64,000 nucleotides of DNA from contig NZ_JAHVIT010000001.1 in the NCBI RefSeq assembly GCF_019801605.1, positions 1,364,001-1,428,000 on the forward strand. Direction: 5' to 3'. Each line of letters opens with the position of its first letter. Within the stretch, counting starts at the first letter, position 1. The translations under genes and the position numbers were made by a program. This DNA comes from Maritimibacter alkaliphilus. Its GTDB lineage: Bacteria > Pseudomonadota > Alphaproteobacteria > Rhodobacterales > Rhodobacteraceae. The notes beneath the pieces were generated by a model. It had not been told where the DNA came from and searched no databases. It worked only from the letters and a program-made list of their open reading frames with translations. Positions 18,736-22,090 of the stretch are shown here, piece by piece.

Positions 18736-19704
18736 TCAACGGGACGTCGCCCGCGCCGGGACTGGCTTTTCCACGAGGCTCTCCCCCGCATCGGAAATGC
18801 GCGACATGTACCGGTCCCAGCCGCGCCGCGCCCGCGGCGAGTTCTGGTCGTAGATCAGGTAGAGCCCGGCGGCGATCACCACGGCCACGCCGAAGTAGAT
18901 ATAGGTGCCCGGCACCTCGCCGAAGAAGATCGCGCCGATCAGCACCATCCAGACGAACTGCATGTTCATCAGCGGCGTCACCGCGTAGGCCGGCAGCTTG
19001 CGCAGCGAGACGACGAGGATCCAGCGCGCCCCGAAGAGGCAGAAGGCATAGGCCACCGCCCAGAGGACATCGGTGATCGGCATCGGCTTGAACACGAAGG
19101 GCAGCGCCGCGCCCATGCAGATCATGATCGCGAGGTTCGGATAGAAGACCTGCGCCAGCGAGTTGCTTTCGAACTTGCCGATGTAGCGGGCCATCACCAT
19201 CGAGAGGGTGCCGGAGAGCGAGGCGACGAGCGCCACCGCGTGGCCGAGCGTCACCGAATGCAGGCCCTCGGGGAAGATCATCAGGACCCCGATGAACCCC
19301 GCAGCGAGCGCGAGCCAGACCTGAAGCCGGACATGTTCCCGCAGGATCAGCCCTGAGAAGACGCCGGCAAAGATCGGCACCATGCCGATGAAGATGAAGA
19401 CCTCCGCGAAGGGCAGAAGCCGGAACGAATAGAAGTAGCAGATGGTGGAGAGCACGGTCATCGCCGCGCGCAGGGCCATGGCCCCGGGCTTGGTGGTGCG
19501 CATGCCTTCGCTCTGCGGTTTCACCCGGTCCGCCAGCAGGGTGAACAGAACGACGAGCCCCCCTGAAATAGCGTAAAGCTGGGGGGCCGCATAACCGCCC
19601 GCCAGCAACTTGGTGATCCCATCGGCCGTCGAGATGATGGCCGTATATATGAGGACAAGGAGTGTGCCGCTGAGCGCGGCAGACTTCAGTATCTTTGCCT
19701 TCAT
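18736..19704 (-). CDS. DMT-superfamily (EamA) transporter
   Basis: A 322-residue integral membrane protein with about ten hydrophobic helices in two EamA halves, the second repeat beginning near residue 155. Proteins of this group export amino acids, metabolites or drugs. Its ATG overlaps the stop of the unrecognised 370-residue gene by 4 nt, so it is translated as part of the repeat-protein operon. That makes it a candidate exporter for whatever the operon makes. The short hydrophilic C-tail is rich in Arg/Ser and unlikely to be functional. Substrate unknown. Confidence 0.87.
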   Translation of the reverse strand: MKAKILKSAALSGTLLVLIYTAIISTADGITKLLAGGYAAPQLYAISGGLVVLFTLLADRVKPQSEGMRTTKPGAMALRAAMTVLSTICYFYSFRLLPFAEVFIFIGMVPIFAGVFSGLILREHVRLQVWLALAAGFIGVLMIFPEGLHSVTLGHAVALVASLSGTLSMVMARYIGKFESNSLAQVFYPNLAIMICMGAALPFVFKPMPITDVLWAVAYAFCLFGARWILVVSLRKLPAYAVTPLMNMQFVWMVLIGAIFFGEVPGTYIYFGVAVVIAAGLYLIYDQNSPRARRGWDRYMSRISDAGESLVEKPVPARATSR

Positions 19705-20813
19705 CCCGCACTCCCCGTCGGTCGCAGGGGCAGGCCCGCGTTCAGCCCGGTGCGGGCGAAGCCGGCGAAGAAGGCATCGAAATCATCGCAGGCGGCCTCG
19801 GCCTCCAGCAGGATGTCGCGGCTGGTCTCGCTCAGCGTCTCCAGCAGGTAGGGACGCATCAGCCCCCAATCGCTGCTGCGGCGATCGTCCAGCCGGAACA
19901 TGCACTCCGACATTTCGCGCAGCGGCGCCGCGCGGTCGTCCATCCGGTGGAAACTGACGCTGTCGGCAACCACGGGATGAACGAACGCTTCGCCCCCCGC
20001 AGCGGTCGCGACCGCCCAGTTACACACGAGATACTCGTGGTAGTCGTCTTGTTTCACTGCCTTGTCTCCCTGTGCGACCTTGAAGCCGCTTGTCACGCCG
20101 CTCAGCCAGTCCACCCACTTCGCCGGAGGGTTGTAGCCTGCATAGGTCATTGCCACGCAAACTTCGGACAGGAGATCGGCGTTACGCTCAAGGTAGCTTA
20201 GAGTTCCGGCAAAGATAAGGCTTTCTTTTGTCCCGTTGGACAAAAGCGGGTCCTTGCGGCCATACTCGCTTAGGTAGAACACGATATGGGTGAGTTCATA
20301 GGCAGCTTTCTTGTTCGGCATAGCGAAAGTCTGGGACCTGGCGACGAAGGCGCGCAGCCGATCGTCGAGCCCGGCATCGTCGGTTCGCGGCGACACACCG
20401 CGGCGCTGCATCAGGCGACGGCCCTCGCCCCGCTGCAGGTCGGAAAGCTCTGCATCCACGAGCCCCTGATCCGCCACCCAGCGGGCCAGGTATTCGCCCT
20501 TGCCCTCGGCGCCCTGAGCCAGGCCCAGATCCTCGAGATCGAGGCAGATCGACAGAAGGAAGCGATAGTACTGCGGGAAGAAGCCCATCCGCTTCTCGAC
20601 ATTCGCGTAGAAGCCGGCGTGGGACTCCAGCGCCTCGGGCTCCAGCGCGGTGCCGGTGCATTCGAGGATGTTCAGAAGTTCCGCGTTTTCCTTCAGCCAG
20701 AACACGTCGTCGCCGTAACGACGGTTCCTGGCGAAGTTTTCCAGCAGGGCGGCATGACGCACCGCCCTGCGCTGACGACGGGAGGGGAGGTTCAGCTGGA
20801 TGACATTGGACAT
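19701..20813 (-). CDS. Uncharacterised 370-residue protein, partner of the repeat protein
   Basis: I do not recognise this family with confidence. The protein is soluble, mostly helical by composition, without signal peptide or membrane segment. It has a basic N-terminus (SRRQRRAVRH) and a motif AYELTHIVFYLSEYGRKDP near the middle, faintly like uncharacterised proteins carrying THxVFYxTDFG. It lies 66 nt after the repeat-protein gene and overlaps the transporter gene by 4 nt. The ATG is preceded by GAAAGGAA. About 20030-20330 the GC content falls to roughly half, well below its own ends and its neighbours, which suggests a mosaic origin. Confidence 0.75.
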   Translation of the reverse strand: MSNVIQLNLPSRRQRRAVRHAALLENFARNRRYGDDVFWLKENAELLNILECTGTALEPEALESHAGFYANVEKRMGFFPQYYRFLLSICLDLEDLGLAQGAEGKGEYLARWVADQGLVDAELSDLQRGEGRRLMQRRGVSPRTDDAGLDDRLRAFVARSQTFAMPNKKAAYELTHIVFYLSEYGRKDPLLSNGTKESLIFAGTLSYLERNADLLSEVCVAMTYAGYNPPAKWVDWLSGVTSGFKVAQGDKAVKQDDYHEYLVCNWAVATAAGGEAFVHPVVADSVSFHRMDDRAAPLREMSECMFRLDDRRSSDWGLMRPYLLETLSETSRDILLEAEAACDDFDAFFAGFARTGLNAGLPLRPTGSAG

Positions 20814-20879
20814 GGGTTCTTTCCTTTCGTCACCGGGGCTGACCGCCCCGTCCCGGTCGATGTTGGAGCGCGCCGCGGC

Positions 20880-21647
20880 TTACGAGCCGGACGAGAACAT
20901 GTGGGTGCCTTCACCCGCGTCGGTCTTGGCCGAAGCAACCGGAGCGGAGCCCGAGGAGAACATCTCCACCGCGTCGCCGGTGGTGGCTTCCGAGGTCACG
21001 GGTGCGGAGCCCGACGAGAACATCTCGACCGCGTCGCCGGTGGTGGCTTCCGAGGTCACGGGAGCCGAGCCCGAGGAGAACATCTCGACCGCGTCGCCGG
21101 TGGTGGCTCCCGAGGTCACGGGTGCGGAGCCCGAGGAGAACATCTGGACCGCGTCGCCGGTGCGGGCGTCGGAGGTCACGGGTGCGGAGCCCGAGGAGAA
21201 CATCTCGACCGCGTCGCCGGTGGTGGCTTCCGAGGTCACGGGTGCGGAGCCCGAGGAGAACATCTCGACCGCGTCGCCGGTGGTGGCGCCCGATGCCATC
21301 GGAGCCGAGCCCGAGGAGAACATGTGGACCGCGTCGCCGGTGCGGGCGTCGGAGGTCATCGGGGCGGAACCCGAGGAGAACATCTCCACTGCGTCGCCGG
21401 AGGTGGCAGCCGAGGCGACGGGGGCCGAGCCCGAGGAGAAGAGGTTCAGGCCTTCACCAGCCGTGGCAGCGGCTGCGGTGAGGGGCGCGGAACCCGACGA
21501 GAACATCTCGGTGGCGTCGCCGCCGAAGAGATCGGATGCCATCGGGGCCGAGCCCGAAGAGAACATCTCGGCGCCCAGGCCGTCGTGCATCGAGAAGCTC
21601 TCGGAGACGCGTTCGACCGGGGCGAATTGTTTACGAAGTGCGGACAT
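20880..21647 (-). CDS. Repeat protein with twelve (M/L)FSSGS motifs, candidate multi-core precursor
   Basis: Unrecognised. The start was set at ATG 21647 because GGGAG lies eight bases upstream; an in-frame extension has no such site. The 255-residue product has a short N-terminal segment of about 27 residues (MSALRKQFAPVERVSESF...) followed by repeats of about 20 residues. The consensus is EMFSSGSAPVTSEATTGDAV and the last copy ends exactly at MFSSGS-stop. Eleven copies have Met and one Leu before FSSGS. There is no signal peptide, cysteine in the repeats or membrane segment. It is first in an operon with a 370-residue protein and a DMT transporter. A leader plus repeated cores resembles multi-core peptide precursors, but a structural repeat protein is equally possible. 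Confidence 0.8.
   Translation of the reverse strand: MSALRKQFAPVERVSESFSMHDGLGAEMFSSGSAPMASDLFGGDATEMFSSGSAPLTAAAATAGEGLNLFSSGSAPVASAATSGDAVEMFSSGSAPMTSDARTGDAVHMFSSGSAPMASGATTGDAVEMFSSGSAPVTSEATTGDAVEMFSSGSAPVTSDARTGDAVQMFSSGSAPVTSGATTGDAVEMFSSGSAPVTSEATTGDAVEMFSSGSAPVTSEATTGDAVEMFSSGSAPVASAKTDAGEGTHMFSSGS
20883..21569. repeat. In-frame 60-bp tandem repeat array (about 11.5 units)
   Basis: The array codes for the (M/L)FSSGS repeats. Units at 21001-21060 and 21181-21240 differ by one base. A 180-bp higher-order period is visible: the DARTGDAV unit, then a unit starting H/Q-MF, then an EATT unit occur twice in that order. Two units near the N-terminal end are one codon longer. High identity in the middle and decay at both ends indicates recent expansion by slippage or unequal crossing over. 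Confidence 0.92.
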
Positions 21648-22090
21648 TTGGTGTGCTCCCAACAAGTGAACCAAGGTGCATAAACGCTTGCACGCAATCC
21701 GGGTTTTGCAAAACAATTTTTCAAGCTAACCGTGTCCAATTTGAGGCAAAGCGCGTGAGCCATTGCGCGCAACCAATTGATATTGCTTGATTAGATAAAA
21801 TTTAAGCGCGCCCCATTTTGAACACATTTGGGTCCCACTTTGACCCGGATTCCAGTCGGTTAGCCCCTCCCCCACCCTCCGAATCGGGCGTCTCACAGCC
21901 GCTCTCGGTGCCGTGAGTCGTCCCTCCATCGTCGCCAACCAGCGTCCGTCCGACTCGCATCCGCCCCGGCATCGGACCGGCTCCGACGCCGCTCCGCGTC
22001 CCGATACGGCGCCGTTCCGCTCCACCCTCCGGTGCATTGCTGGACAGTGTCCCGGGGATCGGCGATGAAGGGGCAACAGGGGGCCGGACC
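21648..22090. other. AT-richer promoter region of the repeat-protein operon
   Basis: The 443-nt gap between the divergent repeat-protein operon and xthA has no gene. About 21660-21830 is clearly AT-richer than the rest of the window. It includes a perfect 12-nt palindrome GTTTTGCAAAAC (21703-21714) about 56 nt upstream of the repeat-protein start, placed where an operator could lie. I cannot assign a -35/-10 pair with confidence. The part near xthA returns to high GC. Confidence 0.5.

Follow-up and report, generated by a model that had tools for sequence, protein, structure and literature searches.

In a 64,000-nt stretch of DNA from Maritimibacter alkaliphilus (GCF_019801605.1, NZ_JAHVIT010000001.1, positions 1,364,001-1,428,000; referred to as the window), we found a minus-strand unit of three genes that we read, with a probability of roughly 0.68, as a multi-core peptide system resembling those of ribosomally synthesized and post-translationally modified peptides (RiPPs), in which a protein of the Pfam family DUF6902 would modify each core of an adjacent repeat protein. 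Behind this reading stand the linkage of the repeat gene to DUF6902, the co-occurrence of the two among genomes, cores that are alike within a precursor with an excess of synonymous differences, covariation of core and DUF6902, homology of DUF6902 to the family DUF6895, and precursor-like genes beside DUF6895. The features of the locus are as follows:

20880..21647, minus strand: repeat protein, putative multi-core precursor, 255 aa; a relative precedes DUF6902 in each of the 80 loci kept
21567..21647, minus strand: non-repeated N-terminal 27 residues, putative short leader; its M-x-A start is common to many relatives
19701..20813, minus strand: DUF6902 protein, 370 aa, putative peptide-modifying enzyme; Pfam match, conserved residues and a confident all-helical model
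18736..19704, minus strand: EamA/DMT-type transporter, 322 aa, optional putative exporter; Pfam match
21684..21693, minus strand: conserved GTGCAAGCGT box, possible promoter or regulatory element, about 45 nt ahead of the precursor start

The repeat protein begins with 27 residues and continues with 12 copies of FSSGS, 11 behind M and one behind L, the last of which forms the C-terminus. The copies follow one another at a spacing of 20 (nine times) or 21 residues (twice) and mostly stand behind G-(D/E)-x-x-x-(M/L); in the DNA, TRF reports a 60-nt array at 20944-21440 (score 740, 87% matches). An initial annotation of this DNA had described the product exactly so (255 residues, a 27-residue start, twelve (M/L)FSSGS copies in units of about 20 residues), and the 66-nt gap before the 370-aa open reading frame (ORF) and the 4-nt overlap of the DUF6902 stop with the EamA ORF, which it had noted for a three-gene operon, are both present. 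Two plus-strand ORFs run antisense to the array (20286-21683 and 20800-21669); we discounted them, since in relatives the minus frame shows a proportion of nonsynonymous differences (pN) far below that of synonymous ones (pS).

A search for related loci confirmed 187 DUF6902 stretches, and in the best 80 of these 187, which were kept, a repeat gene stands upstream of DUF6902 in all 80. By a strict rule (the protein's last four residues present at least three times) 71 of them were recognized, and nine were read by eye (L006, L012, L023, L029, L037, L051, L058, L059, and L080, whose repeat gene holds a run of N). Because such a gene recurs in all 80 homologous loci kept, the layout of the locus is not a matter of chance; each of the 80 has a linked candidate precursor with an N-terminal part and a core. 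Of 292 genomes of the order, 81 have DUF6902 (80 above the cut-off) and 67 match the repeat profile; every one of these 67 also belongs to the 81 (Fisher, 1.6e-52, genomes taken as independent). The initial annotation had named homologues of the repeat protein that regularly lack the partner and transporter as evidence that would count against such a system; in these genomes no repeat-profile match was found without the partner (0 of 67). Outside the repeat profile are 14 DUF6902 genomes, 12 of which have a divergent repeat gene by eye (one of the 12, G274, with only two units, whose cores differ). G177 has a sub-threshold DUF6902 match with a stop, and in G117 (L138/L188) no repeat gene was found within 700 nt upstream of DUF6902; a GCAAGCGT-like box still stands before DUF6902 there. 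DUF6902 was not found in the plasmid collection, and 44 stretches of viral contigs matched a pattern, none of which was confirmed.

In a count over 97 loci (79 of the first 80 plus 18 from fetched genomes), EamA follows DUF6902, as a same-strand match starting no more than 600 nt from its end, in 70 of the 95 loci with room, and xthA (any upstream match in the locus) precedes the unit on the other strand in 94 of the 97, two being without room and one lacking it. Because EamA is optional, the conserved unit is the repeat gene plus DUF6902. The multi-core layout suggested initially is therefore conserved in its N-terminal part, repeated cores and dedicated partner, but not in an obligatory exporter.

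Within a precursor, the repeated cores (3 to 20 copies per repeat protein across loci) are kept alike by selection. For core copies picked because they differ at most once from the terminal core, a choice that biases pN downward, pS is 0.56 and pN 0.05, with pN below pS in 67 out of 67 precursors; in the same precursors the flanks give pS/pN of 0.61/0.29 before the core and 0.63/0.41 after it. With core-free anchoring on the preceding G-x motif (65 precursors, 536 units), pN ranges from 0.09 to 0.22 over the five positions of the core, is 0.30 and then 0.20 at the two positions after it, and lies at 0.47-0.55 for positions 7-11. The two positions after the core are usually A-P and thus part of the conserved block. 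Every anchored unit is identical in 36 of the 65 precursors, and the other 29 are mostly misplaced anchors, with some true mixed cores.

Between genomes, the core takes 29 versions in 105 loci. Position 3 is Ser or Thr in 104 of them and Cys in one, although for the odd cores MPTSN, STSSF, MTSVA and AQSFS we chose the register ourselves, so that Ser/Thr at position 3 is partly built in there; position 1 is not Phe in nine loci. The initial remark that the repeats lack Cys applies to this window and fails in several relatives (cores FSSCS, FTTSC, FTTGC, VSSTC). A quick tree of 95 DUF6902 proteins, with 30 of its 92 inner branches open and several long branches, requires no fewer than 34 core changes; L057 (truncated), L023 (no label at that time) and L138 (no core) were left out. 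Core labels were assigned by eye for 27 loci of the tree and for nine more in the covariation analysis and the 105-locus count, and each locus received a single label, mixed cores or not. For the most part the copies change in concert, which would be expected of copies that encode a single product, and this coordinated change suggests that the product is important to the cell, perhaps as a signal. Core distance also tracks DUF6902 distance given xthA (partial r = 0.298, 0 of 2000 permutations, n = 93). The same holds for the first-set 76 loci (0.287, 0/2000; xthA given DUF6902, -0.026, 1325/2000) and for 65 loci with EamA (0.398, 0/2000; xthA given DUF6902, 0.132, 95/2000).

The 370-aa protein had been called unrecognised, with no known modifying family in sight, which proved wrong. 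It matches DUF6902 (PF21843) over the entire profile (524.4 bits, cut-off 27, positions 1-351 of 351) and also DUF6895 (PF21836; 69.2 bits, cut-off 23.8, 5e-19, positions 15-236 of 289), and is thus related to DUF6895 without being one of its core members. In its title, a 2026 paper by Shi et al. in ACS Catal. calls a DUF6895 member an epimerase in lasso peptide modification. Seven residues (Y172, H176, F179, G185, D213, E217 and H259) are common to DUF6902 and DUF6895 in 21 out of 21 aligned sequences, and in a wider alignment (n = 78) each is kept in 77 or 78. The single DUF6902 among the 78 without Y172, H176 and D213 (L138) is also the one without a repeat gene. The predicted structure is confident and all-helical; by sequence the protein has no solved relative at E <= 1, and Foldseek gave nothing at E <= 0.001, importin alpha being nearest with 0.049. 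Two further loci deserve mention. A Roseovarius DUF6902 (L057, 5001-6074) is interrupted by an in-frame stop following residue 140, carries Asn in place of H259, and looks decayed, though its repeat gene stays open. At L131 (G150) the DUF6902 match is broken into five and the repeat gene has degenerated, so that both genes seem to decay together.

From the sister family, we read nine DUF6895 loci; six of eight plasmid records were taken, all six exceeding the DUF6895 cut-off, and the below-cut-off L120, L121 and L179-L181 were not used. In six of the nine (L114, L115, L142, L143, L144 and L189), a small leader-like ORF of about 65 to 143 aa stands just upstream of DUF6895. Two of the six are from Alphaproteobacteria, one from a different class-level lineage within their phylum, one from Bacillota and two from Actinomycetota. 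Aligned by eye, these ORFs share the stretch h-x-x-(S/A)-G-h-h-(D/N)...L-h, usually followed by a Trp/hydrophobic tail; in a MAFFT alignment, Gly is the sole invariant residue. At L142-L144, the second half of DUF6895 or the gene after it contains another helical region, marked by a QQxxGxFG-like pattern, which by eye resembles the repeats of alpha/alpha toroid proteins and is absent from DUF6902.

We propose the following mechanism. The repeat protein would act in the cytosol as a precursor in which one short core, FSSGS in this window, is repeated many times, every copy preceded by a similar putative recognition stretch, G-(D/E)-x-x-x-(M/L). DUF6902 would bind the precursor and modify each core, most plausibly at the position-3 Ser/Thr and by epimerization of the alpha-carbon through a His/Asp/Glu acid-base site. 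A protease would then cut out the cores to give short peptides, and the adjacent EamA transporter, where there is one (about three quarters of the loci), would export the product; such an exporter would suit a small product. Epimerization is proposed because DUF6902 is related to DUF6895; it is the leading chemistry but not secured, and we give it slightly less than even odds.

Several points weigh against this reading. The cytosolic location, the modification with its chemistry and site, the cleavage, the export and the biological role are steps that we infer. The epimerase evidence for DUF6895 consists of that one title, taken from a reference list; identity between DUF6902 and DUF6895 is 15-20%, and their relationship is homology at that level. 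Three of the nine DUF6895 loci are without the shared leader stretch: L145 has a 62-aa ORF separated by one gene from the first of two DUF6895s, and no clear precursor gene was seen near DUF6895 in L146 and L147. For a leader, the N-terminal part of the repeat protein is short and shows weak conservation, and AlphaFold2 gives for this protein a low-confidence regular beta-repeat (mean pLDDT 66.7, pTM 0.59). Cores are mixed by eye in L002, L005, L007, L025, L037, L043, L045, L051, L057, L058, L117 and L187, for example FTSGS with FTTSA in L005, FSSCS with VSSCS in L002, F with Y in L007, L025, L043 and L045, and FSSGS together with FSTSC-type cores in L037, L051 and L058. EamA is missing from 25 of 95 loci (in 18 of which the next gene run, read by eye, includes a dGTPase). 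No protease was found among the three genes or the four scanned window neighbors (aldo/keto reductase, SDR, exo/endonuclease, FAD-binding), although an unlinked one is possible. Lastly, the permutations ignore phylogeny, which makes the covariation suggestive only; the xthA control is unclean (xthA given DUF6902, partial r = 0.145, 11/2000, n = 93), and in the 65 EamA loci the transporter competes with DUF6902 (DUF6902 given EamA, 0.174, 28/2000; EamA given DUF6902, 0.159, 59/2000), the distance correlations there being 0.856 for DUF6902-EamA and 0.550 for DUF6902-xthA.

Among the alternatives, the one that survives best keeps the precursor and modifier logic and makes DUF6902 something other than an epimerase: an enzyme for dehydration, acyl or glycosyl transfer or cleavage on the Ser/Thr-rich core, or a binding or processing partner. 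We consider it unlikely, since the residues kept across both families favor shared chemistry and no other enzyme family was matched in Pfam or NCBIfam at E <= 1. A second, improbable explanation gives the repeat protein a structural or surface role as a beta-repeat (scaffold, adhesin, ice-binding-like), with DUF6902 as chaperone or binding partner. It would fit the two strands per 20-residue unit in the AlphaFold2 model (pLDDT about 70-83 in mid-array), the spacing of 20 or 21 in 456 of 508 intervals, and the five PDB matches of the repeat protein, all at E 5.9 or worse, which include phage tail fibre/spike and adhesin chains. However, overall confidence in the model is low, AlphaFold2 is known to invent beta-solenoids for perfect repeats, and Foldseek found no PDB match at E <= 0.001. 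Moreover, 39 of the 508 intervals have a spacing of only 8, and in 18 of 71 loci the spacing differs by 3 or more, which speaks against a regular solenoid. The copy number ranges from 3 to 20, no N-terminal hydrophobic stretch was seen by eye, and the cores, unlike the variable spacer residues, change in concert from one species to another. Profile searches of the repeat proteins gave matches that we read as chance (NCBIfam, E 0.019 and 0.72, far below cut-offs; Pfam on 16 repeat proteins, each family in two of them at most). Three-residue cyclophanes (triceptides), with an FxsB-kind radical SAM enzyme cross-linking F-x-S and DUF6902 as accessory, were rejected as highly improbable despite the C-terminal F-x-S-x-x core, because the SPASM domain (PF13186) has no match in the window's own 99.7% complete genome (PF13186 is found in 8 of 14 controls) and Phe is not invariant. 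A defence-system reading was likewise rejected, as the PADLOC anti-phage defence models matched none of the three proteins (0 families).

The upstream regions of the putative precursor contain further conserved elements. The GTGCAAGCGT box is present at 8 or more of 10 letters in 58 of 71 upstream regions, compared with about 1.7 of 71 expected from mononucleotide shuffles, and is a possible promoter or regulatory element. An exact, DnaA-box-like TGTGGATAA occurs in 41 of the 71 (L002, L004, L005, L008, L009 and others), often in two copies at fixed places, about -186 and -110. DnaA control of the operon is possible in these genomes; TTATNCACA has no match anywhere in the window.

If the multi-core peptide reading is correct, more than a quarter of the sampled genomes of the order (80 of 292 above the cut-off) carry the system, usually at one conserved chromosomal place, which suggests that many marine Roseobacter-type bacteria make an undescribed modified short peptide. 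The unassigned family DUF6902 would also gain a function open to testing, the newly reported family of peptide epimerases would be enlarged, and nature would provide a case of a single enzyme acting on many short cores that are nearly identical. A more speculative and rather doubtful extension is a new Rhodobacteraceae RiPP class, in which DUF6902 yields short peptides with a D-residue, in up to 20 copies per precursor and with clade-specific cores that stay alike inside a genome, as a bacterial counterpart of multi-copy peptide pheromones. We found no description of such a system in the literature searched (the DUF families, core strings, and Rhodobacteraceae, roseobacter and multi-core epimerase RiPPs), which mostly left subscription papers outside.

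Compared with known systems, the C-terminal F-x-S-x-x recalls the FxSxx-COOH precursors of FxsB triceptides, from which the locus differs by its genome having no SPASM match and by the variable Phe. As an analogy only, the yeast alpha-factor precursor also contains many copies of one short, species-specific peptide; it differs in having a secretion signal and dibasic sites, which were not seen by eye here, and in that the partner here is of another family. Multi-core RiPP precursors are known from cyanobactins, graspetides and dikaritins. Like these, the repeat protein has an N-terminal part and many near-identical cores behind a repeated recognition-like stretch, next to a putative modifier and often a transporter; unlike these, the operon is without a known maturation enzyme family and has up to 20 cores of about five residues. 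Relative to the DUF6895 family, DUF6902 is without the second helical region of L142-L144 (by eye) and is paired with a many-copy precursor, and the lasso peptide B protease and C cyclase were not found among the three genes or the four scanned neighbors. At the same time, DUF6902 matches the DUF6895 profile and keeps its conserved residues, and small precursor-like genes stand beside both families.

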